Notes under the pieces: generated by a model | What the model saw: only the letters and a program-made list of their open reading frames with translations | The model's database searches: none | What the model was told of the DNA's origin: nothing | IMG/VR virus record: IMGVR_UViG_3300036719_002257 | Coordinates: 1 to 20,543 of that record | Length of the DNA stretch: 20,543 bases | Source: a virus | Direction: 5' to 3' (one strand) | Shown here: piece by piece, positions 4,456 to 20,543 of the stretch | How the letters are laid out: each line of letters opens with the position of its first letter | Numbering within the stretch: the first letter of the stretch is position 1 | Program-made: the position numbers and the translations under genes

Positions 4456-4746
4456 ATGCGGCTAAAAGTGCTCGCGCTCACTCTGGCGCTCTCATGCGCG
4501 GGATGCGCATCAAACTCGGGCGTCCAGCCCTACTCTGGCGATGTTCTATTCGTGGCTCGCCAAGGTGCGACGGCAGCGTCTAGCCCAAGCGATTTGCGGG
4601 GCGCGGCCATGAACCAAGCCCGAGAGTATTGCGAGGGCCAAGATGCGGCCTTCAGGCTTGTTGAGGTGATTGAGGTCGATCCGCCCTACATCTTTGGACG
4701 CTTCCCCCGCGCTGAGGTGCGCTTTCGCTGCGAGCCACGCGCTTAA
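4456..4746 (+). CDS. Small conserved bacterial-type lipoprotein (96 aa)
   Basis: The ATG is preceded by a strong ribosome-binding site, AGGAGG at 4442-4447, eight bases upstream. Residues 1-16 form a signal peptide (MRLKVLALTLALSCAG), and Cys17 in the sequence CAGC is the likely lipidated residue, although position -3 is Cys rather than Leu. The mature part carries FVARQGATAASS, a helix with EYCEG, and PPYIFGRFPRAEVRFRC near the end; the two Cys residues may form a disulfide. This pattern matches a small lipoprotein family of unknown function common on proteobacterial chromosomes. The gene is on the strand opposite to the late operon, has its own ribosome site and shares a terminator hairpin downstream, so it looks like a host-derived moron. 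Localisation is probably the outer membrane or periplasm; an effect on the lysogen surface is speculation. Confidence 0.8.
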   Translation: MRLKVLALTLALSCAGCASNSGVQPYSGDVLFVARQGATAASSPSDLRGAAMNQAREYCEGQDAAFRLVEVIEVDPPYIFGRFPRAEVRFRCEPRA

Positions 4747-4757
4747 GGCCCCAAACG

Positions 4758-4789
4758 AAAAAACGCCCCGGCTGTTAGACCGGGGCGTT
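4758..4789 (-). terminator. Intrinsic terminator (strong on minus, possibly bidirectional)
   Basis: A perfect 10-bp stem (AACGCCCCGG at 4762-4771, CCGGGGCGTT at 4780-4789) encloses an 8-base loop. Read on the minus strand it is followed by six T residues (plus-strand A run 4758-4763), the classical intrinsic form, 11 bases after the stop of the membrane-protein gene. The plus-strand lipoprotein gene ends 15 bases before it, and the hairpin could also end that transcript, though the T tract on that side is poor. Confidence 0.9.
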
Positions 4790-4799
4790 AAGTTGCGCG

Positions 4800-5573
4800 T
4801 CAGAAGTGAGCCGCAATCACGTTGTCTTCCGTGATGACGCTGCGGGATTGGGCCTTGCTGGATTTCCGTGCTGGCGCGCGCTTGGCGCGCATCGGCATGG
4901 AGAAGGCAGCGGTGAAGCCGGCCACGAGAATGTGGAAGAGCGCGGCTTTGGCCCAGAAGAGCAAACCGCCGTTCTCCCAAGCGAACATGACGGGGCGCGG
5001 GTTTGCGCCGTCGAGGCGTTCAGTCAGGAGATCACGTTCGGCGATGAAGTTCATGTACGCCGTCTCGGCGTTCGGGTTCATCGTTTCGTCCGCCAAGGCG
5101 TCAATGTGGCGATTGAGGCTGACAAGGCGGGCTTGATCGCTTTCAAACGTCGGGGCGGAGCGAACCGCCTCTGCCGTCATCTGGCTTTGCGCGTTGGCCA
5201 GCGTAGTCGAAAGGTTCCACACCGAAAGTGCGAAGCAGAACCAGACGATCTTCCAAGCCAGAGCGCGCTGCGTGGGCGAGCGGATGGAGCGGGCGACCAT
5301 GGGGCCGAACACCACGCCAAGGCTTGCCAGCACCGCACTGGAAACGAAGATGACCCCGGTGATGGGATCGGACGCCATGCGGTGGATCACGCCGGCCACC
5401 GAGACTTCGACCGCCACAAGGGCGACGAAAGCGGCAGCGCAAAGGATGAGAGCGACCCAGGGAACGCGGGCCGCAAAGCGAGACAAGGCTCTGAGGCGCT
5501 GTTGGATCGGTTTAGTCTTGCGAGTGCGCGCCGGTTGAGATTTGCAACGCGCGGGTTTATTCTTCTTGTTCAT
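4800..5573 (-). CDS. Four-helix integral membrane protein of unknown function (257 aa)
   Basis: The ATG at 5573 (MNKKNKPARC) follows GGAG with nine bases spacing. A longer in-frame start at 5717 would lie upstream of the predicted transcription start and is rejected. The N-terminus is strongly basic (residues 3-36), followed by four hydrophobic helices at about 38-63, 71-93, 105-124 and 203-226, and a basic tail (AKRAPARKSSK, 230-240). Both ends should be cytoplasmic by the positive-inside rule. The 78-residue segment between helices 3 and 4 (about 125-202) is polar and helical and should face the periplasm. I do not recognise the family. The gene is driven by its own promoter with paired palindromic operators, stands divergent to an RHH repressor gene, and ends at a strong terminator. 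Regulated membrane proteins at this position in P22-like phages include the superinfection exclusion protein SieA; a similar role here is inference, and a holin-like role is less likely given the long loop. Confidence 0.7.
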   Translation of the reverse strand: MNKKNKPARCKSQPARTRKTKPIQQRLRALSRFAARVPWVALILCAAAFVALVAVEVSVAGVIHRMASDPITGVIFVSSAVLASLGVVFGPMVARSIRSPTQRALAWKIVWFCFALSVWNLSTTLANAQSQMTAEAVRSAPTFESDQARLVSLNRHIDALADETMNPNAETAYMNFIAERDLLTERLDGANPRPVMFAWENGGLLFWAKAALFHILVAGFTAAFSMPMRAKRAPARKSSKAQSRSVITEDNVIAAHF

Positions 5574-5608
5574 CTCGGGGGTCTCCGGGATGCGGCTTGT
5601 CCGCCAGC

Positions 5609-5639
5609 GGGCCGAAGGTGTTGGTAGCGCCTTCGGCCC
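5609..5639 (-). promoter_or_regulatory. Hairpin in the leader of the membrane-protein mRNA
   Basis: A perfect 10-bp stem (GGGCCGAAGG at 5609-5618, CCTTCGGCCC at 5630-5639) with an 11-base loop lies about 36 bases upstream of the membrane-protein start, inside its predicted 110-base leader. No T run follows on the minus strand, so it is not a simple terminator. It may stabilise the message or take part in attenuation. Confidence 0.5.
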
Positions 5640-5680: not shown

Positions 5681-5688
5681 CAATGCAC

Positions 5689-5717
5689 AATATGGCTAGC
5701 CAGACTGGGCTTGTCAA
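5689..5717 (-). promoter_or_regulatory. Sigma70-type promoter for the membrane-protein gene
   Basis: On the minus strand a perfect -35 box TTGACA (5717-5712) is separated by exactly 17 bp from CATATT (5694-5689), which matches TATAAT at four of six positions. The predicted start is near 5682, about 110 bases before the gene. Both palindromic operator sites touch this promoter, one over the spacer and -10 box and one immediately upstream of the -35 box. Confidence 0.7.
5692..5704. promoter_or_regulatory. Operator site 1 (palindrome TGGCTAGCCA)
   Basis: The sequence ATGGCTAGCCAGA contains a perfect 10-bp palindrome (5693-5702). It covers the spacer edge and part of the -10 box of the minus-strand promoter. 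An identical 13-base copy lies 25 bp away, close to the start of an RHH protein gene, as expected for an autoregulated repressor. Binding is inferred. Confidence 0.65.
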
Positions 5718-5739
5718 TGGCTAGCCAGAGCGCTAGGGT
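5711..5739 (+). promoter_or_regulatory. Possible promoter for the RHH repressor gene
   Basis: TTGTCA (5711-5716) and TAGGGT (5734-5739) are spaced 17 bp apart on the plus strand. The -35 box almost coincides with that of the divergent promoter, because the bases TTGTCAA read as TTGACA on the other strand. The -10 match is weak (three of six). Transcription would start at or just before the ATG, so the message could be leaderless; AGGG at 5735-5738 could serve as a ribosome site only if transcription starts further upstream. Confidence 0.35.
5717..5729. promoter_or_regulatory. Operator site 2 (palindrome TGGCTAGCCA)
   Basis: This is an exact copy of ATGGCTAGCCAGA, with the palindrome at 5718-5727. 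It abuts the upstream side of the minus-strand -35 box and sits in the spacer of the possible plus-strand promoter. Occupancy of both sites would silence the membrane-protein gene and the repressor gene together. Confidence 0.65.
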
Positions 5740-5745
5740 GACAAA

Positions 5746-5922
5746 ATGGCAAAGCGACCACCCGCCCAGAAAGCCGCCGAAAGCACCTACCGCAGCAAGT
5801 TTGCGGCGTCCGTGCTCGTGCGACTGACCAAGCAGGAAGCCGCGGCGATCGACGCCAAGCGCGGCGAACTGACCCGCCCTGAGTACCTGAAAGCCAAGGC
5901 CCTTGAAGGAGCCCGAACATGA
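5746..5922 (+). CDS. Ribbon-helix-helix (Arc/CopG-type) repressor candidate (58 aa)
   Basis: A 58-residue basic protein starts at the ATG at 5746, with AGGG eight bases upstream. Residues 22-28 (SVLVRLT) form the beta strand that RHH dimers insert into the DNA major groove. KQEAAAIDAKRGE (29-41) and LTRPEYLKAKALEG (42-55) fit helices 1 and 2. The strand-helix-helix length matches Arc (53 residues) and CopG (45). The N-terminal arm MAKRPPAQKA is positively charged. The stop overlaps the start of the next gene as ATGA, so the two are co-translated. Twin palindromes just upstream are the natural targets, giving autoregulation and control of the divergent membrane protein. The fold assignment is strong from sequence pattern; the target is inferred. 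An antitoxin role is less likely, because the partner looks like a plain membrane protein. Confidence 0.8.
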   Translation: MAKRPPAQKAAESTYRSKFAASVLVRLTKQEAAAIDAKRGELTRPEYLKAKALEGART

Positions 5923-6134
5923 CTAAGCCCGTTCTCACCACCCGCTGCATAGGAATGGCCCCGGATGCTTCAGGACATCCTCTTGCGCCTATGGAATATG
6001 TTTATGAGTGCCAAGAGCCGCCGAAGGCCAGCCTACTCGATCGCGCCATCGGCATCTTCCTAGGCTCGCTCACGGTGTTTCTGTCCGTGGTTGGCGTGCT
6101 TGGGTTCGTCGGCATCCGCGTGATTAATCACTGA
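5919..6134 (+). CDS. Small single-pass membrane protein (71 aa)
   Basis: The start overlaps the stop of the RHH gene (ATGA), and GGAG lies upstream in CTTGAAGGAGCC, so the ribosome site is good. Residues 1-40 are soluble with Cys10 and Cys31. Residues 43-66 (AIGIFLGSLTVFLSVVGVLGFVGI) form one transmembrane helix with a glycine-rich face, followed by RVINH. The 3' end overlaps the 3' end of the giant late gene on the other strand by seven bases. The family is unknown to me. Coupling to the repressor suggests it is expressed when the repressor is made, as expected for a lysogeny-time or early membrane function. A membrane-bound toxin is possible, but nothing beyond size and the helix supports it. 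Confidence 0.65.
   Translation: MTKPVLTTRCIGMAPDASGHPLAPMEYVYECQEPPKASLLDRAIGIFLGSLTVFLSVVGVLGFVGIRVINH
6120..6131. repeat. 12-bp perfect palindrome at the convergent gene ends
   Basis: GTGATTAATCAC spans the point where the small membrane-protein gene and the giant late gene overlap tail to tail, and includes the TGA of the giant gene. It has no loop and no T tract, so it is not a terminator. It could be a protein site or the chance result of two overlapping ends. Confidence 0.4.
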
Positions 6135-14000: not shown

Positions 14001-15161
14001 TCACGACCAGCCGAAATCAAGGTGTCCGTAGAATGCGCTGTTGTTCGGGATGGCTGCGCCCGCGTAGCAGAGCCAGCCCAGGCACGCGCCGTCAAACACG
14101 CGCGGCATGGACGGAAGCTGGTTCACCAAATCACGCTCCGCCGCCACGCCCAGTGTCGTCATTGGTAGCGTCAGCAGCGGCTTGGCGAAGACCATGTTGT
14201 AAACGCCTGTCGTGACGCCAGCCGAGCCGAGGATAATGTTGGTCACTTCGCGCACGCCGGAGTCGCCGCCAGCGAGCGGCATGAACGGGCCGAACTTGCC
14301 TGAGCCGGTGCCTGAATAGGGAATGGTCAGCAGCGGGCTCGTGGCTGTGTTCGTTGGCAGCGCAGGCGAGGATGGCGTGGTGCGCGAGCCGGTGCCCGCT
14401 TGGTTGGTGTAGGTAAGCTGAAACGTGCCGGTACCAGCCGTGCCCGCTGTGGACGCGACCAACAGCGGCATGACGCCCGCGCCGTCCGTGTAGCGAGGGT
14501 GGCGCACGAACATCGTGTTGGTGCCTGAGCCCGCATCGGTGAACGCGATAGCCGTGCTTGCAATGGCGTTTTGCAGCGTTGTGGCGAGGCGAGAGGTGGT
14601 CGCGCTGACGCGGATCGTCCAGTAGGTCGTTGCTGCAACGAGGCCGGTTGGAAGCGCGCCGGTCGTGGTGAAGCGAACCGGCGTGAATGTGTCGTAGTCT
14701 GCCGCCGTGGTCATCAACAGGCCCGACGAAGACGAGAATGTCACCGCCTCGGTGTTGACGAAGGTCTTGGTGCCAGCCGTCGAGATCGTAGCGTTGGTGA
14801 GCGTTGCGTAAGAAAGGAAATCACAGAGCATGAACACGGCAGGCATAGTCGTGGCCGCAGCGCTATAGGCGCTCGCATTCAGGAGCACCTTGTAGCCATC
14901 GTAAGCTGCGTTGACCGCGCCGCCATGCTGGATCGCGCCAGCCGTAGAGGTGAAGTCATAGAGCGGCTTCTGAACCAGCGTCACGCCAGAGCCTAGCTGT
15001 GTGTTTGCGCCGGGATTGCCCGCGCCGCCGAGCAGGCATTGCCACGAGCCCGCAATCACGGTGCCCGCCGTGGCGTGGTTCTTGTTCCAGTCTGAGCGGA
15101 AGAACTTGCCCGAGTTGGAGACGTTAGAGATCAGGTTATCAAGTGAGCTAAAGCCAGCCAT
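14001..15161 (-). CDS. Phage structural protein, paralogue of its upstream neighbour (386 aa)
   Basis: I start at the ATG at 15161 (MAGFSSLDNLISN), which forms TGATG with the upstream stop; the longer frame has an unrelated leader. The C-terminal core from RYTDGAGV (223-230) through GPFMPLAGGDSGVREV, YNMVFAKPLLTLP and MPRVFDGACLGWLCY to the end aligns with the core of the next gene upstream. Before this core sits an extra module of about 85 residues (124-217) with TPVRFTTTGALPTGLVAATT and an Ig-like or beta-sandwich look, a module often found in phage surface proteins. The protein is probably a tail or head decoration component. There is no enzyme motif. I am confident it is a virion protein but not of its position. 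Confidence 0.8.
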   Translation of the reverse strand: MAGFSSLDNLISNVSNSGKFFRSDWNKNHATAGTVIAGSWQCLLGGAGNPGANTQLGSGVTLVQKPLYDFTSTAGAIQHGGAVNAAYDGYKVLLNASAYSAAATTMPAVFMLCDFLSYATLTNATISTAGTKTFVNTEAVTFSSSSGLLMTTAADYDTFTPVRFTTTGALPTGLVAATTYWTIRVSATTSRLATTLQNAIASTAIAFTDAGSGTNTMFVRHPRYTDGAGVMPLLVASTAGTAGTGTFQLTYTNQAGTGSRTTPSSPALPTNTATSPLLTIPYSGTGSGKFGPFMPLAGGDSGVREVTNIILGSAGVTTGVYNMVFAKPLLTLPMTTLGVAAERDLVNQLPSMPRVFDGACLGWLCYAGAAIPNNSAFYGHLDFGWS

Positions 15162-16030
15162 CAGTTCCACACCGTTTCTATCGTGCCCATGATCTGGCCA
15201 GCTGCGAGCGTGCCCGATGGCAAGCAAATCAGGTTCAAGTAGGCGTCATCGTAAATGCGCGGCAGCGTCGCTGGATTGTCGGTGGCGAAGTCCTTTTCCG
15301 CAGGCGCGGTGATGTCGTAGACGCCGATGGTCGCTAGCGGCTTCACCAGCACGAGCGCGATGAGGCCAACGTCCGCGCCGAGCATGGTCAAGCTCTGGAT
15401 TGAACGGACGCCCGTGTCGCCTTGTTGCAGCGGCAAGAAGGGGCCAGCGCAGCCAAGCGTGGCGGCAGCCGTTGAAATGATCGTGCCGGTTGAGACTTGT
15501 GTGTTGCACCTCACTGTCGGCGTCACGCGGTTAGTGATGCCATCTGAATTGGTGTAGGTTGCGAAGAACGATTGGCCGCCGATCTGGGCTGCGACCTCAA
15601 CCGCCATGATCTGCACGCCTTCGCCATCGGTGTAGCGCGAGAGCGTTTCAGATTGCGTCATGTCCTGCTGATCGGTCGTGCCCATGTCCACGAACGAGTA
15701 GTAGAGCAGGTAGTCACAGAGGATCATCGGCAGCGGGACTGCCGTGGTCGGCGTCGAGACCAGCGCCGTGAAGCGACGCAAGTGCTTAGTGTATGAACCA
15801 CCGGGCGCTGCGCCATGAAAGATGCCGCCGTCGCTCGATTGCGTCAGCCGCTTCGATGCGAGCGGCGCAGCGGCGTAGTAGTTCGGGATCGGATTGCCTG
15901 GGCTCATGCTCAGATCAAACCAGATATTGGTCGCGGTCGTTTGCGTCGGCGCTTTGCGCCAACCGAACGTGGTCGTCTGCCCAGCCTCAACGGCTTCGAT
16001 TAGTTCGCGGTGATTGCGGAAGCCGGTCAC
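15161..16030 (-). CDS. Phage structural protein, first of a tandem pair (289 aa)
   Basis: The start is GTG at 16030, overlapping the stop of the small zinc-type gene as GTGA. The sequence MTGFRNHRELIEAVEAG opens a short N-terminal helix, followed by a mostly beta protein: PLPMILCDYLLYY (99-111), RYTDGEGVQIMAVEV (132-146), GPFLPLQQGDTGVRSIQSLT, LVLVKPLATIGVYDI, LPRIYDDAYLNLICLPSGTL. The same order of motifs occurs in the next gene, so the two are paralogues that have diverged strongly. Such proteins are common next to tail genes in podophages and lack a named function. The product is likely a multimeric virion component. Confidence 0.8.
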   Translation of the reverse strand: MTGFRNHRELIEAVEAGQTTTFGWRKAPTQTTATNIWFDLSMSPGNPIPNYYAAAPLASKRLTQSSDGGIFHGAAPGGSYTKHLRRFTALVSTPTTAVPLPMILCDYLLYYSFVDMGTTDQQDMTQSETLSRYTDGEGVQIMAVEVAAQIGGQSFFATYTNSDGITNRVTPTVRCNTQVSTGTIISTAAATLGCAGPFLPLQQGDTGVRSIQSLTMLGADVGLIALVLVKPLATIGVYDITAPAEKDFATDNPATLPRIYDDAYLNLICLPSGTLAAGQIMGTIETVWN

Positions 16031-16161
16031 TCGGTCGCCTCCGGCTCAGCCTCGTATGGCTCTACGCAGGCGCACGCCTTGTAGGGCGCGCCTTCTTCTG
16101 CGCGCACCTCAATGCCGCAGGTTGGGCAGCGATAGCGGATGATAACCGGGGTGTCGGTCAT
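16027..16161 (-). CDS. Small putative zinc-binding protein (44 aa)
   Basis: A 44-codon frame fits exactly between two structural genes, with TGATG at its start (16161) and GTGA at its end (16030-16027). The protein has CPTC at residues 12-15 and CAC at 30-32, so four Cys residues in a CxxC...CxC pattern could bind one zinc. Residues 5-11 (PVIIRYR) look like the first strand of a zinc ribbon and the C-terminus is acidic (EPYEAEPEATE). Such mini zinc ribbons are frequent in phage tail operons without known role. The gene is supported by the double overlap and clean frame. Confidence 0.7.
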   Translation of the reverse strand: MTDTPVIIRYRCPTCGIEVRAEEGAPYKACACVEPYEAEPEATE

Positions 16162-16592
16162 CAGTCCTCCGTGCCGTCAAGCTCGCCTGCTCCGAATTGC
16201 GGTTGGATGCCTGAACTAATCGCCAGCGACGCAGAGAGCGCGCCCTTGTAGAGAACCTTGCCGGTCGAGCTTGCCGCCGTGCCAATGGCGAAGTGTGTGG
16301 CCGTTTCAGAACCGCCCGTGCATTGCGGAAACTGGATCAGCGCCGCATTGGTGACGGCGTTGCCCGTGACCGTCCAGCCGGAGCCGGAGCGGGCTACAGC
16401 GACGCGCGCATACGAGGTGTAAGCGCACTCGTTGCTTGTCTGATTGCCAGCCTCGCCAGGATCGCCCGTGTGCAGCGAAACGTGAAGGTTGGTCAGCGGC
16501 GATGACGAGGCGTTGTCCGCGATGTTTGCGATGCCTGTTGCGGTGAAGATCAGCAAAAGCAGATCGTTTTCAAAAGCGTTCGATTTAGACAT
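16161..16592 (-). CDS. Tail-fibre-like phage structural protein (143 aa)
   Basis: The ATG at 16592 (MSKSNAFENDLLLLIFTATG) is preferred to the one at 16685, because conservation of this phage family begins here and GGGG lies upstream. Key stretches are LHVSLHTGDPGEAGNQTSNE (36-55), YTSYARVAVARSGSGW (58-73), FPQCTGGSETATHFAIGT (88-105) and LYKGALSASLAISSGIQPQF (114-133). This pattern belongs to a family often labelled tail fibre or structural protein in siphophages and podophages. It is short and beta-rich, with no catalytic motif. A 123-base gap precedes it, so it may have some expression of its own. Confidence 0.8.
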   Translation of the reverse strand: MSKSNAFENDLLLLIFTATGIANIADNASSSPLTNLHVSLHTGDPGEAGNQTSNECAYTSYARVAVARSGSGWTVTGNAVTNAALIQFPQCTGGSETATHFAIGTAASSTGKVLYKGALSASLAISSGIQPQFGAGELDGTED

Positions 16593-16715
16593 GATGTGCG
16601 CCCCGAATGTTGTATGCTCTCCCCGTTGCCGTAGAAACTGAGAGTTGTTTGTTTTGGCCGAATGGCAGATGGCGTTGCGGCGCATAGCCGAGCTTGAGGG
16701 GCGATAGCCCCTTGC
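16593..16715. other. Longest intergenic gap inside the head-tail operon, with a hairpin
   Basis: No gene fits this gap. A 6-bp stem AGGGGC/GCCCCT with a GATA loop on the plus strand lies at 16697-16712, directly after the stop of the coiled-coil gene, but no T run follows on the minus strand. The middle is richer in A and C (minus-strand AAAACAAACAACTCTC). A weak internal promoter is possible, but I see no clear -35/-10 pair. Confidence 0.4.
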
Positions 16716-17243
16716 TCATGCGACCGCTCCCAGCGTGCGCTTGAAGGCGGCGAGTTCAGCGCGGGCGCGGTCAAGCTCAGCCATGACGCCGGCCGTTTCC
16801 TGCTTTGCGGCTTCGGCGGCCTTGGCCTCTTTCGCCTGAGCGGCGCGATACTCTGCGATCGTCGCCTCAAAGCTTTGCTTGGCGGCCGCGATGTCAGCTT
16901 CAGCGCTTCTCTTAATTTCAGCGACCTCAGACCGAGCGCCGGCAACGATGCTGTTGGCCTTTTGCGTGGCGGCTGAGACGGCATCGGCCGCGGCTTTCTC
17001 GGCCTCAGCTTGCGCGGCCTTCGCGGCAAGCGCCTTGTCGCGCGCTTCTTTCGCCAGATTGTCTTCAGCAAGGCGGACGGCCTTGGCCTTTTCGGCAGCG
17101 GCCAAGGCTTCGCGGCTGATCTGCTCAGCGCTTTGCGCCGCAGCGATCACCTCGGATGCCTTCGCGAACGTGCGAATAAACTGGCCCCACTGGGCAACGA
17201 CGGCAGACGCCTCATCGAGCGTCATGTCTTTTGGCTGGCTCAT
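16716..17243 (-). CDS. Alanine-rich coiled-coil protein (175 aa)
   Basis: The ATG overlaps the previous stop as ATGA. After a short N-terminus (MSQPKDMTLDEASAVVAQWG) the rest, about residues 28-170, is one long helix rich in Ala, Glu and Lys with heptad-like spacing (AEQISREALAAAEKAKAVRL, AEAEKAAADAVSAATQ, AELDRARAELAAFKR). There is no signal peptide or membrane segment. Long Ala/Glu/Lys helices in this region may be structural rods or scaffold-like chaperones of tail parts. Composition makes homology hard to judge, so the function stays open. Confidence 0.7.
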   Translation of the reverse strand: MSQPKDMTLDEASAVVAQWGQFIRTFAKASEVIAAAQSAEQISREALAAAEKAKAVRLAEDNLAKEARDKALAAKAAQAEAEKAAADAVSAATQKANSIVAGARSEVAEIKRSAEADIAAAKQSFEATIAEYRAAQAKEAKAAEAAKQETAGVMAELDRARAELAAFKRTLGAVA

Positions 17244-17614
17244 CGCTGAGTTCTCCGGGCATAGATGCGAGCGCGCAGATTGCAGCCCGCGCCTGCGCCA
17301 GTGACGATGGCGCGCGTGCGGTACGGCGTTTCGAGAATGACCTTGAGGCCGGTTGCGGCGCCTGAGCTGGTGAACGTCAGGAGGTTGCCGAACACGTCAT
17401 GCAGCGTGAACCAATCTTGGTTTGGCTCACCGTCAAGGCTGTTGGTGCCTTGGAGCGTGACCGTTGCGCCGTCGAACGTGCCCGCCACCGTAGCGCAGCG
17501 ATCGCCCATAGCCGACGCGAAGATGGCGTCACCCTCACCGTCGCCGGTGAAATTCCAGCCCTCAAGCAGGCTGGTTCCAGCCTCATAGGGTTTGACCTTA
17601 GCGACCGTTGCCAT
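17240..17614 (-). CDS. Conserved phage virion-type protein (124 aa)
   Basis: AGGAG lies six bases before the ATG at 17614. The small protein looks all-beta: a leader MATVAKVKPYEAG, then VAGTFDGATVTLQGTNSLDG (43-62), QDWFTLHDVFGN, LTFTSSGAATGLKVILETPY, and a basic end RARIYARRTQR. The motif of a measured value compared with a reference (GATVTLQGTNSLDG) is seen in small phage proteins encoded after the coat gene. It ends in ATGA overlap with the coiled-coil gene. It could be a decoration or minor head protein; this is inference. Confidence 0.7.
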   Translation of the reverse strand: MATVAKVKPYEAGTSLLEGWNFTGDGEGDAIFASAMGDRCATVAGTFDGATVTLQGTNSLDGEPNQDWFTLHDVFGNLLTFTSSGAATGLKVILETPYRTRAIVTGAGAGCNLRARIYARRTQR

Positions 17615-17660
17615 TTGCGCTCCTGAGCGTCACGTCATCATCGAAATATTGGAACCTGGC

Positions 17661-18107
17661 TTACGCCTTGCCCTTGCCGGCTTTCTTGGCGGGCTTTGCC
17701 GCCTTCTCGTCACCGCCAAGGAGCGCATCGATCGCTTCCTTCAAAGCGGGCGGGCAGTTGGGATCTTCGCCAACGCCCGCGATGAACTCTTGCAGCGCAA
17801 GAATCTGATCGCCTTGGGCTTGGATCACGTTGTCCTTGGCGACGATCATCTCATCCTTGGAGGCCATCGAGCCTTGAGCGGCGTTGAGCTTTTCGATGAG
17901 GGCCAGCATCTCTTTGCTGTTGGCAGCGTCTGGCTTGGCGGCGGCCACTGGCGTAGGCGCTTTCGCGGCTTCGGCCACCGCGGCGCGACGATCGCCCCAG
18001 CCTTCAGCCATTGCAGCGTCCAGCGCCGCTTGTGTCGTCACAACGAAATGCACAACCGCAGCGCCCTCGGCGCGATAGAGCATCTTGGGAAATTCTTGCA
18101 CGCTCAT
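17661..18107 (-). CDS. Small phage protein with FPKMLY motif and lysine-rich tail (148 aa)
   Basis: The true start is probably the ATG at 18107, which forms ATGA with the glycosyltransferase stop and has GGAG eight bases upstream; an ATG 30 bases earlier adds residues without a better ribosome site. The N-terminal motif FPKMLYRAEGAAVVH (6-20) with AAMAEGWGD (31-39) is a small module that recurs in phage proteins near coat genes. An Ala/Pro linker (about 42-62) leads to a helical coiled region (63-112), then a conserved-looking DPNCPPALKEAIDALL and a Lys/Ala tail (134-148). The function is unknown; an accessory head protein is a fair guess. Confidence 0.75.
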   Translation of the reverse strand: MSVQEFPKMLYRAEGAAVVHFVVTTQAALDAAMAEGWGDRRAAVAEAAKAPTPVAAAKPDAANSKEMLALIEKLNAAQGSMASKDEMIVAKDNVIQAQGDQILALQEFIAGVGEDPNCPPALKEAIDALLGGDEKAAKPAKKAGKGKA

Positions 18108-18769
18108 GCTGCTCGCTCCATGCGCCGGCGAAGCCATGCGCCAATGTTGCCCCAGTGGTGACGCCCTGCTGCGTCCACATGGTTCAGGTTAAGAAGAGGA
18201 TCGAGCCAGACCTCCCCGCCGATCGCGCGCCACTCAGCGCAAAAGCGACCGTCTTCACCCCAGCCAATCGGCTGGTGGAAGTAAGCGTGGAAGACGTGGC
18301 CCTCGTGGGCGTAGGCGCGGTCTGGGTGGGCCTCACGCAGTTTGGTGAACACATCGCGCGACAGGCTGAGGAAGCCGCCAGGCAGCGCCGACACTTCGAT
18401 CAAGCCCGTCTCTTCATCGCTCCAAAGTTCATCGCGCTCAGCGATCCACTCAATCGGGTAGGTTTCTTCGTCGCGCTTGTGGCGATAGCAGCCGCCGACG
18501 AAATCAGGTTTTGCGGTGGCGATCTTCAACAGCGCGCCGGGCTCCCAGGCCACGTCTGCATCAATGAAGACGAGCCGGTCGGCGTCGCTTTCCAGAAACT
18601 CGCGCACGAGCTGATTGCGCGCCTTGTCCACATAGCATGAGCCGGGGAGAAAGCAGACTTGCATCTCAATCCCCGCCGCGTTGGCGACCGCCTGCTCACT
18701 GAGCAAAGCGGTCGCCGTTTCGCAGCAGATTTTCCGGTCATAGGCCGGGATGGCTACGAAGACTCTCAC
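18104..18769 (-). CDS. GT-A-type glycosyltransferase (221 aa)
   Basis: I choose GTG at 18769, one base after the previous stop, because the conserved fold begins directly with VRVFVAIPAYDRK. The ATG at 18835 would add 22 unlike residues inside the neighbour. The nucleotide-sugar fold is shown by AIPAYD (6-11), the helix with KARNQLVREFLES (49-61), and LVFIDADVAWEPG (66-78) with the metal-binding DxD Asp70-Ala-Asp72. Further on, FVGGCYRHK, the acceptor-side motif GWGEDGRFC (169-177) and LNLNHV (193-198) fit small phage glycosyltransferases related to GT2 and Anp1 types. It should transfer a sugar from a nucleotide donor. Its place among head genes points to glycosylation of a virion protein or of host surface glycan; the substrate cannot be read from sequence. 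Confidence 0.85.
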   Translation of the reverse strand: MRVFVAIPAYDRKICCETATALLSEQAVANAAGIEMQVCFLPGSCYVDKARNQLVREFLESDADRLVFIDADVAWEPGALLKIATAKPDFVGGCYRHKRDEETYPIEWIAERDELWSDEETGLIEVSALPGGFLSLSRDVFTKLREAHPDRAYAHEGHVFHAYFHQPIGWGEDGRFCAEWRAIGGEVWLDPLLNLNHVDAAGRHHWGNIGAWLRRRMERAA

Positions 18770-18770
18770 G

Positions 18771-19067
18771 TTATGCGGAGCCCTTGATGAGGCCCAAGTT
18801 GACCAGCGCCGTTCGAACGGCGGTCTGGTGGGCAATGATCGTCGCCAGAGCGTTGGCGATGATGGTCGAGTTGTAGGTCGCGGTCAGCGCTGCAACGCCA
18901 GTGGTGAGGTTTGCAGTACCGCCCGAGGCGTCGGTGATGGCGCCTTGGTTCGCCGCAGAGGGCTGAACAATCGGGGTGGAGCCATAGAAGGCAACCTTGT
19001 CGCTGGCCGATTGGCCAAGACGCTGGCCATCTTCGCGGCCGTCAGAGTGTTGATAGATGTCAGACAT
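18771..19067 (-). CDS. Small head-fibre-like phage protein (98 aa)
   Basis: This is the first gene after the coat gene. The motif SDKVAFYGSTPIVQPSA (22-38) is typical of small phage proteins and of the C-terminal parts of head fibres or head decoration proteins; it is followed by GAITDASGGTANLTTGVAAL (42-61) and a helix (YNSTIIANALATIIAHQTAV, 65-84) that probably forms a trimeric coil. AGGGA lies eight bases before the ATG, inside a small palindrome (GGGATGATCCC, 19068-19078). The likely role is a capsid surface protein; family membership is from recognition of the KVxFYGxTPxVQPS pattern. Confidence 0.75.
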   Translation of the reverse strand: MSDIYQHSDGREDGQRLGQSASDKVAFYGSTPIVQPSAANQGAITDASGGTANLTTGVAALTATYNSTIIANALATIIAHQTAVRTALVNLGLIKGSA

Positions 19068-19105
19068 GGGATGATCCCTATTCGATGTTGAAACACTGAG
19101 CGTTC

Positions 19106-19129
19106 GCGGGGAGAGTCGCCCCTCCCCGC
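19106..19129 (-). promoter_or_regulatory. Strong hairpin after the capsid gene
   Basis: GCGGGGAG (19106-19113) and CTCCCCGC (19122-19129) form a perfect 8-bp stem with an 8-base loop, and outer AGCG/CGCT bases (19099-19102 and 19134-19137) may extend it to the stop codon. No T tract follows on the minus strand. It probably protects the coat message from 3' decay or lowers readthrough to the next genes. Confidence 0.55.
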
Positions 19130-19136
19130 TCTACGC

Positions 19137-20387
19137 TTAGGCGGTGCCGCTGAGGCGGGTCGCCAGACGCGCGTCAAGGCCTTGGGCGCCGTAGATGATG
19201 TCGTAGCGATGGTTGTGCTCATCGTTGCGACCATCCGAGTAACGCCAGTAGCGGAGCGACAGGCCCGAGTCGGCGTCGCGCTCGATCGCGGCTTCACCAT
19301 TGAACGGCATCGGCAAGTCGGCCGAGACCAGAACATAAGCTTCACGGTGGAAGACAAGGTTCTGGGCGTAGCTCAAGCCGCCCGAGCCAACCAGCGTGAT
19401 CGCGGCATTGTCTGCCGGCGCTGCGTCCACGTTCTGATACGCGCCCGAGATGATGATCGGGGGCGAGATCGTGATCGACAGTTCCGAAGCGCCACCCGTC
19501 GAGAAAGTCGCGTTGGCGCTGGTGACAACGAACTGTTGATCGTAGTCCAGCACTTGCTTCGTGCGCGGGTTGACAGCCTTCACGTTGGCGATGGTGATGA
19601 CATCGCCCTTCTTGACCGTGGCGCCGTTGTTCAGGTCATCGATCAGGAGGCTTTGCGTGTAGGTCGTCATCACTGACGAGTAGGCCGAGACTTGGTTGGC
19701 GCCCTTAACGAGCGCGCCGCCTGCCCAATCGCCATTGGTGTGGTTGACAACCGACTGCGACCACACCGGATCAACGTCCGCAACCATCGGGATCTTGGCG
19801 CGCTCAACCGCGGCCTTGGTCATGTCCGATTGGAAAGCGGAGCCCGCCGTGAACGAGCCCGCCAGAGCGTAGCCGTCACGAACCGACAGAACGCCGTGGC
19901 GATCGGTCATCGGCACGGCCATGTCCGTCAGACGCTCCGGGCCTTTGAAGAAGTCCGTTGCGCTGTTGATGGTTTGGCCCGGCGTGCCAGCCCACGAATA
20001 GGTGGACTGATAAGCTGCCGTGAAGATGTCGGTGTCCACTTGCTGAGCAAGCTGGCCCATCGCGGCGTTGAGCGCCTTGTCGAGCAACAGCGTGTCCAGG
20101 CTGAGGGCCGCTTCGATGGAGGTGAACTTGTAGTCCACGCCCTTCTGCGTGCCGAGAGTGATGGACACTTCGCCTTCGAGCACGTCTTGAACGTCCGCGA
20201 CGCGGCCGTCACGAACGGTGAACTCCGGGTGACGCTTGGCCTTAACGGTTTGACCCGCTTTGGCGCCGACGCGAGCGTACTCAGACGAATATTGGCTCGA
20301 CACTTTGCGAGCCATGACGAGGTTGTTCTTGAGGAGGGCGAGGCCCGCCTTCGCGAACACCGTAGGTGTTGCAATAACGTTAGACAT
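19137..20387 (-). CDS. Major capsid protein, P22 coat (gp5) type (416 aa)
   Basis: The sequence MSNVIATPTVFAKAGLALLK, the motif HPEFTVRDGRVADVQDVLEG (53-72) and SITLGTQKGVDYKFTSIEAA (75-94) follow the P22 coat pattern, as do the central ADVDPVWSQSVVNHTNG part and the C-terminal AAIERDADSGLSLRYWRYSD. The length is close to the 430 residues of P22 gp5. It would form the T=7 shell in the HK97 fold with the extra P22-type insertion domain. GGAG/AGGT lie just before the ATG at 20387. The gene follows a partial frame that probably encodes the scaffold, as in P22. Strong expression is expected, and a hairpin follows the stop. Confidence 0.9.
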   Translation of the reverse strand: MSNVIATPTVFAKAGLALLKNNLVMARKVSSQYSSEYARVGAKAGQTVKAKRHPEFTVRDGRVADVQDVLEGEVSITLGTQKGVDYKFTSIEAALSLDTLLLDKALNAAMGQLAQQVDTDIFTAAYQSTYSWAGTPGQTINSATDFFKGPERLTDMAVPMTDRHGVLSVRDGYALAGSFTAGSAFQSDMTKAAVERAKIPMVADVDPVWSQSVVNHTNGDWAGGALVKGANQVSAYSSVMTTYTQSLLIDDLNNGATVKKGDVITIANVKAVNPRTKQVLDYDQQFVVTSANATFSTGGASELSITISPPIIISGAYQNVDAAPADNAAITLVGSGGLSYAQNLVFHREAYVLVSADLPMPFNGEAAIERDADSGLSLRYWRYSDGRNDEHNHRYDIIYGAQGLDARLATRLSGTA

Positions 20388-20408
20388 TTACCTGCTCCGG
20401 GGTCGGGC

Positions 20409-20543
20409 TCAGCCGCCCCATGAGGCCGCACGCGTCGCTTGGAGTGCCCTTAGGCGTGCCTCCACTTCGGCGGGCGTTGCGGTCTCCGCGTTAAACTGTG
20501 GCGCAGCCCCTGACGGTGTGACCGTAGGGATTGGCGCCGGTGA
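20409..20543 (-). CDS. C-terminal end of the gene upstream of coat (probable scaffold), partial
   Basis: A minus-strand frame enters from the right edge and ends in TGA at 20409-20411 after 44 residues, 21 bases before the coat start. The visible part is a Pro/Ala/Thr-rich linker followed by a charged helix, TPAEVEARLRALQATR (24-39), and ASWGG at the end. In P22-like phages the gene before coat encodes the scaffolding protein, whose charged C-terminal helix binds coat; this fits, but only position and helix support it. The rest of the gene is outside the window. Confidence 0.55.
   Translation of the reverse strand, partial: SPAPIPTVTPSGAAPQFNAETATPAEVEARLRALQATRAASWGG

Follow-up and report, generated by a model that had tools for sequence, protein, structure and literature searches.

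Two copies of a perfect palindrome lie between divergent genes in a virus genome record, and the question raised by this locus is whether the pair is a regulatory element and, if so, which protein reads it and which promoters it controls. The record, which was analysed at its full length of 20,543 bases and is called the window here, encodes on its plus strand RHH58 (5746 to 5922), a 58-residue ribbon-helix-helix (RHH)-like protein and the proposed repressor. The next gene, TM71 (5919 to 6134, plus strand), overlaps the RHH58 stop codon by 4 nt (ATGA) and specifies a 71-residue protein with one predicted membrane helix. On the minus strand lies mem257 (4800 to 5573), the proposed regulated gene, whose 257-residue product has three to four hydrophobic helices. 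The earlier note regarded the arrangement as a compact switch for the RHH gene and the membrane gene. As described below, the reading as an operator pair for a local switch has strong comparative support, whereas the RHH identity and the plus-strand promoter are weaker than was stated.

The palindrome pair

The two copies of ATGGCTAGCCAGA are present base for base at 5692–5704 and 5717–5729, exactly where the earlier note had placed them, and each contains the perfect palindrome TGGCTAGCCA, with the reported centre-to-centre distance of 25 bp. The palindrome of the first copy (5693 to 5702; putative operator site 1) starts at −53 from the RHH58 ATG, and that of the second (5718 to 5727; candidate operator site 2) starts at −28, both with the exact sequence. 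The window holds no further exact copy, as had been noted. When the count was extended beyond the window, TGGCTAGCCA was found to be absent from the 37.6-kb contig G002, which overlaps the window end (98.3% identity over 5.9 kb, window positions 14665 to 20543); the site is thus not scattered across the genome. The pair is unique in approximately 52 kb from this phage type, taking the window together with G002, which may be a sibling strain rather than the same genome. The nearest copies with one mismatch are at position 4553 of the window, within a gene, and at position 20156 of G002.

A single palindrome means little, because perfect 10-bp palindromes are not rare (the window has 19). The occurrence of one 10-bp palindrome twice within 50 bp, as part of a match of at least 13 bp, was seen in 15 of 5000 first-order Markov windows, or about 0.3% per window. 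CTAG is under-represented approximately fourfold in both the window and G002 (L022, L023), with 18 occurrences in the window against 70 expected, which makes the pair less likely still by chance. We conclude that the pair is very probably a real regulatory element. The sequence between the sites includes GGGCTTGTCA (5707 to 5716), a possible, weak match that agrees with the site at 7 of 10 positions; we do not claim it as a third, central operator, since about 3% of random spacers reach such a match by chance. The titles listed by a literature search with the letters of the site belonged to unrelated papers.

The putative divergent promoters and the predicted mem257 transcript

The minus-strand promoter of mem257 (5689 to 5717) is composed of TTGACA (5717–5712), a 17-bp spacer and CATATT (5694–5689). 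It agrees with the consensus at 10 of 12 positions and, as a sigma-70 match, ranks first among the four promoter-like sites of the window. The coordinates bear out the proposal that the first palindrome covers the spacer and −10 element of this promoter, in that site 1 overlaps the spacer by 8 bp and the −10 by 2 bp. Transcription is predicted to start near 5682, which would give mem257 a leader of 109 nt up to its ATG at 5573, with a ribosome site, GGAGA, at 5582–5586 (minus strand). The predicted leader contains a 10-bp perfect inverted repeat, GGGCCGAAGG/CCTTCGGCCC (5609 to 5639, minus strand), and folds better than shuffled sequences (z −2.6); the repeat is possibly an attenuator or stabiliser. 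Just beyond the mem257 stop codon is a strong intrinsic terminator on the minus strand (4762 to 4789), an 11-bp stem followed by a T run, which ranks first among the terminator-like sites of the window.

The plus-strand promoter proposed for RHH58 (5711 to 5739) consists of TTGTCA (5711–5716), a 17-bp spacer and TAGGGT (5734–5739). The bases TTGTCAA, which had been taken as the −35 box of both strands, are indeed shared by the two promoters, but the plus-strand promoter is poor by consensus (5/6 in the −35 and 3/6 in the −10) and falls under the threshold of the scan that found the four promoter-like sites. Two features of this promoter had escaped the earlier note, namely that site 2, which adjoins the minus-strand −35, lies inside the plus-strand spacer, and that transcription would start at the RHH58 ATG. 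The −10 element lies at −12 to −7, counted from the RHH58 start codon at 5746, which implies a leaderless RHH58 transcript predicted to begin at about 5746, on the A of the ATG. Counting against the leaderless model is a possible ribosome site, GGTGA (5737–5741), which overlaps the −10 and would be wasted if the transcript had no leader.

RHH58 and its neighbours

The designation of RHH58 as a ribbon-helix-helix protein finds support in one match, in which residues 22–53 align without gaps to the part of a Komagataeibacter MobC protein that is of the RHH type (16 of 32 residues identical, 50%). The aligned stretch takes in the strand, both helices and the intervening turn that an RHH fold would be expected to have. 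Its database E value is 0.3, and MobC itself weakly matches the Pfam NikA-like and MobC families. On the other side, RHH58 has no match in Pfam, NCBIfam or the PDB sequences, and PHROG 26444 is reached only at an E value of 0.04. MobC is the sole relative that we found, with none in IMG/VR, none in phages and none in 84,980 genomes. A single-sequence structure model (pLDDT 74) has helices at residues 6–39 and 44–56, with a break at the expected turn and no strand; it gave no PDB match, and the fold prediction is not decisive and of no use for the assignment. From the position of the strand in the MobC alignment, Ser22, Leu24 and Arg26 would be the DNA-facing residues. The protein ends right behind the second helix, with no toxin-binding tail.

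Like RHH58, neither TM71 nor mem257 has a match in Pfam, PHROG or NCBIfam. Relatives of mem257 were absent from IMG/VR, from plasmids and from the 84,980 genomes. Distant DNA searches with the locus returned only chance matches in phages, and the window yielded nothing from Rfam and nothing from PADLOC.

The same site upstream of Arc/Mnt-like genes

IMG/VR was scanned for two copies of TGGCTAGCCA separated by 5–35 bp, and four contigs matched. Three of these (L004–L006) were rejected because they carry one and the same repeat inside coding sequence. In the fourth, L003, a contig of 71% G+C, the pair lies between divergent genes and represents the only two copies in 131 kb. The second copy starts exactly at −28 from the ATG of a 58-residue protein that matches a PHROG 'Arc-like repressor' family (E 0.005). 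At the same place (L003, 7280 to 7344), the distal copy is likewise 19–28 bp from the divergent ATG.

With relatives from plasmids and IMG/VR, the L003 protein belongs to an actinobacterial family of Arc/Mnt-like RHH proteins, of which 12 members were compared; the plasmids are those of Mycobacterium, Gordonia, Prauserella, Amycolatopsis and Streptomyces. The sequence TGGC(A/T)AGCCA is found at −27 to −29 from the ATG in nine of the 12, and another member agrees with it at 8 of 10 positions, also at −28. In most of the site-bearing members a further copy is located at −64 to −66, about 36 bp upstream of the first, and members with one site only (L047 and L048) have kept it at −28. The family members L056 and L057 have no site and also no promoter-like spacing. 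Averaged over pairs of family members, the site is 94% identical, the DNA between the sites 31% and the first 120 nt of the gene 55%, which points to selection on the site as an operator rather than to common ancestry of the region in its entirety. The family profile matches the Mnt repressor of P22 (E 0.005) and single members match Arc families; structure models of the L003 family did not match any fold decisively.

The locus in the window resembles these upstream regions (L003, L045–L050, L052, L054 and L055) in several respects. Site 2, at −28, lies at the family offset, and for a 9/10 site match to fall at one of three given offsets the chance is approximately 1 in 10,000 per gene. A second copy is positioned upstream, and a divergent gene is present in L003 and L055. 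A −10-like element at −12 to −7 is also common to both, as is the placement of the operator within the promoter spacer; in the family alignment, A and T occupy the second and sixth positions of a hexamer located there or one base further out, and TAGGGT in the window has the same two bases at these positions. The differences are that the family sites often extend to GGTGGCAAGCCACC, that the spacing in the window, 25 bp, is about one helical turn less than that in the family, mostly 35–37 bp, and that the family proteins have no detectable relation to RHH58 (hhalign probability 0.1%; alignment scores within the shuffled range). Because of this last result, the shared operator must reflect convergence, chance or a very old relationship.

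We consider this unexpected operator match to a distant RHH family to be the most interesting feature of the locus. One interpretation, which we advance as a possibility and only tentatively, is that unrelated clades of tiny RHH repressors, one in a proteobacterial-type phage and the other on actinobacterial plasmids, have converged on TGGC(A/T)AGCCA and on one architecture. The architecture, which belongs to the same reading and is put forward just as tentatively, would have one operator at −28, within the spacer of a promoter that gives leaderless transcripts, and a second copy, closer in or further out by about one helical turn, that controls a divergent gene. If this is true, the arrangement would be a portable and apparently undescribed regulatory cassette of mobile elements.

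The motif itself is not exclusive to RHH proteins, as pairs of TGGCTAGCC also occur beside helix-turn-helix (HTH) regulators in L035 and L039. In L039 (431 to 472), an array of TGGCTAGCC-like sites is located directly upstream of a 174-residue protein that resembles an HTH/coiled-coil regulator, and the motif may serve other regulators too. In L035 (1709 to 1747), two copies of a direct repeat of about 30 bp, ending in TTGGCTAGCC, lie upstream of a small Cro/YdaS-like gene.

A proposed two-promoter switch and the alternatives

The best explanation of the locus appears to be a switch, a reading strongly backed by the occurrence of the same palindrome at the same offset before Arc/Mnt-like genes elsewhere. 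We think it likely that the palindromes are operated by RHH58, and, a little more cautiously, we favour the fuller proposal that RHH58 binds both sites and controls its own promoter as well as that of mem257. According to this proposal, an RHH58 dimer or small multimer would bind each copy of TGGCTAGCCA. Occupancy of site 2 would fill the spacer of the RHH58 promoter, so that RHH58, together with TM71, would be autorepressed. At site 1 the protein would lie over the −10 and spacer of the strong promoter on the other strand and so repress mem257. As the promoters overlap at TTGTCAA, a protein on either site would be expected to hinder polymerase at the other promoter also. Since site 1 overlaps the stronger of the two promoters, mem257 should be silent when RHH58 is present and should respond as RHH58 falls. 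With its own promoter, operator and terminator, mem257 would be an accessory gene under independent control, a moron, that is plausibly expressed when RHH58 is scarce.

One could ask whether a protein other than RHH58, either a phage regulator of the CI/Cro type or a host factor, uses the sites, in which case mem257 would be tied to lysogeny or host state and RHH58 would have another role. The two Cro/CI-type proteins encoded by G002 and the TGGCTAGCC pairs near the HTH genes of L035 and L039 are consistent with such an arrangement. However, the absence of TGGCTAGCCA from G002 extends to its divergent repressor region, the sole pair adjoins RHH58, and the phage encodes no relative of the HTH proteins found in L035 and L039, so that we regard this explanation as unlikely. 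Operators of the CI/Cro region were rejected as a source of the palindrome, no related site being found there. Ribbon-helix-helix antitoxins autoregulate from palindromes, and the ATGA overlap of RHH58 with the gene for a small membrane protein, TM71, would suit an autoregulated operon of the toxin-antitoxin style, served exclusively by the palindromes and with the control of mem257 incidental. This seems improbable to a greater degree, given that no antitoxin, toxin or defence family was matched, that RHH58 lacks the tail with which a toxin would be bound, and that site 1 is on the −10 of mem257 and not on the RHH58 promoter.

The remaining alternatives require no DNA-binding protein. The two copies are mutually inverted and could pair into a 10-bp stem closed by a 15-nt loop, either as RNA or as extruded DNA; the predicted DNA fold has −11.9 kcal/mol and a z of −2.3. 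Any two copies of a palindrome would fold in this way, however, and the pair is upstream of both predicted starts and would therefore be missing from the local transcripts. The single-site members L047 and L048, in retaining their site at −28, fit protein binding and not a stem, and we find a role as nucleic-acid structure highly improbable. We would assign the same very low likelihood to a duplicated palindrome that arose by chance, or persists as a relic, with no present function. The abundance of 10-bp palindromes in the window leaves some room for it, and the locus is known from one sequence, with no second one to show conservation; against it stand the rarity of such pairs in the simulated windows, the position over the best promoter and between divergent genes, and the conservation of the offset in another RHH family.

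For the proposed switch operated by RHH58, the analysis provides a testable two-promoter model that is linked to a footprint conserved in sequence and position before an uncharacterised actinobacterial RHH family. If RHH58 does bind, then one operator word could be readable by very different RHH proteins, and the locus would offer a direct test of how freely the RHH fold evolves specificity. Binding would also make mem257 a candidate lysogenic-conversion gene, for example for superinfection exclusion, in a phage group of which this analysis found no studied member.

Genomic setting and comparison with known systems

The coat protein of the phage is of the P22 type (PF11651). G002 encodes a terminase, portal, scaffold, tyrosine integrase and RecT in addition to the two Cro/CI-type proteins, and the presence of the integrase, RecT and the Cro/CI-type proteins on this linked contig suggests that the phage is most likely temperate. 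The locus is positioned in the structural gene cluster, between the genes for a 1907-residue protein and a tail-fibre-like protein. No IMG/VR relatives were found for a 464-residue protein or for the C-terminus of the 1907-residue protein. mem257 and RHH58 are placed between a lipoprotein gene and the TM71 gene. In G003, the single relative available for comparison (coat protein 82% identical), a homologous lipoprotein (28% identity, E 3e-6) has a small membrane gene directly next to it, and mem257 and RHH58 are missing; the small membrane gene of G003 does not align with that of the window. On this one comparison, the best reading of mem257 and RHH58 is as an inserted module of the late gene cluster, bounded by the first-ranked terminator-like site at 4762–4789.

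P22-like phages carry the ant moron (immunity I), which encodes SieA, an exclusion protein, along with the repressors Mnt and Arc; it occupies a similar place in the late operon and is highly variable between relatives (PMC2629481). The parallel with the present locus is close in position and components: a small, RHH-like putative repressor is encoded by a phage that has a P22-type coat and is most likely temperate, and the locus is similar also in its location within the late structural cluster near a tail-protein gene, in its variability (one relative compared) and in the inclusion of a membrane protein in the module, SieA in the case of P22. It differs in that no homologue of ant, mnt or arc was found in Pfam, PHROG or NCBIfam, one repressor-like gene is present, the operator is a repeated 10-bp palindrome, and no family found is related to the membrane protein. 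By analogy, the locus would work in part like the P22 moron, and we do not file it as a member.

MobC of RA3 is an RHH autorepressor that binds a palindrome between the −35 and −10 of its own promoter (PMC4175270), the position that site 2 has here, although the RA3 operator differs in sequence (AGCGTCTG..CCGCCGCT). Among the MobC/NikA relaxosome proteins, MobC of the Komagataeibacter plasmid pGXY040 is the sequence closest to RHH58 over the 32 aligned residues; unlike it, RHH58 has none of the remaining part of MobC, and no relaxase was seen nearby. AmrZ of Pseudomonas aeruginosa, also an RHH protein, recognises two GGC half-sites in inverted orientation through Lys, Val and Arg, which occupy alternating positions of its strand (PMC3325190). 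Such half-sites are also present here (GGC-TA-GCC), and Ser22, Leu24 and Arg26 would correspond to the Lys, Val and Arg of AmrZ. The half-sites are 2 bp apart in the window, compared with 5 bp in amrZ1, and AmrZ is larger and controls several genes.

Two minor observations concern other parts of these genomes. The hexanucleotide (CTTGCT)n at L022:16325–16385, in the open reading frame after the Cro-like gene, encodes an Ala-Leu run and could slip. In the window, between 14001 and 16030, the 408- and 289-residue products are related (37% over 144 residues), representing a tandem duplication of structural proteins.
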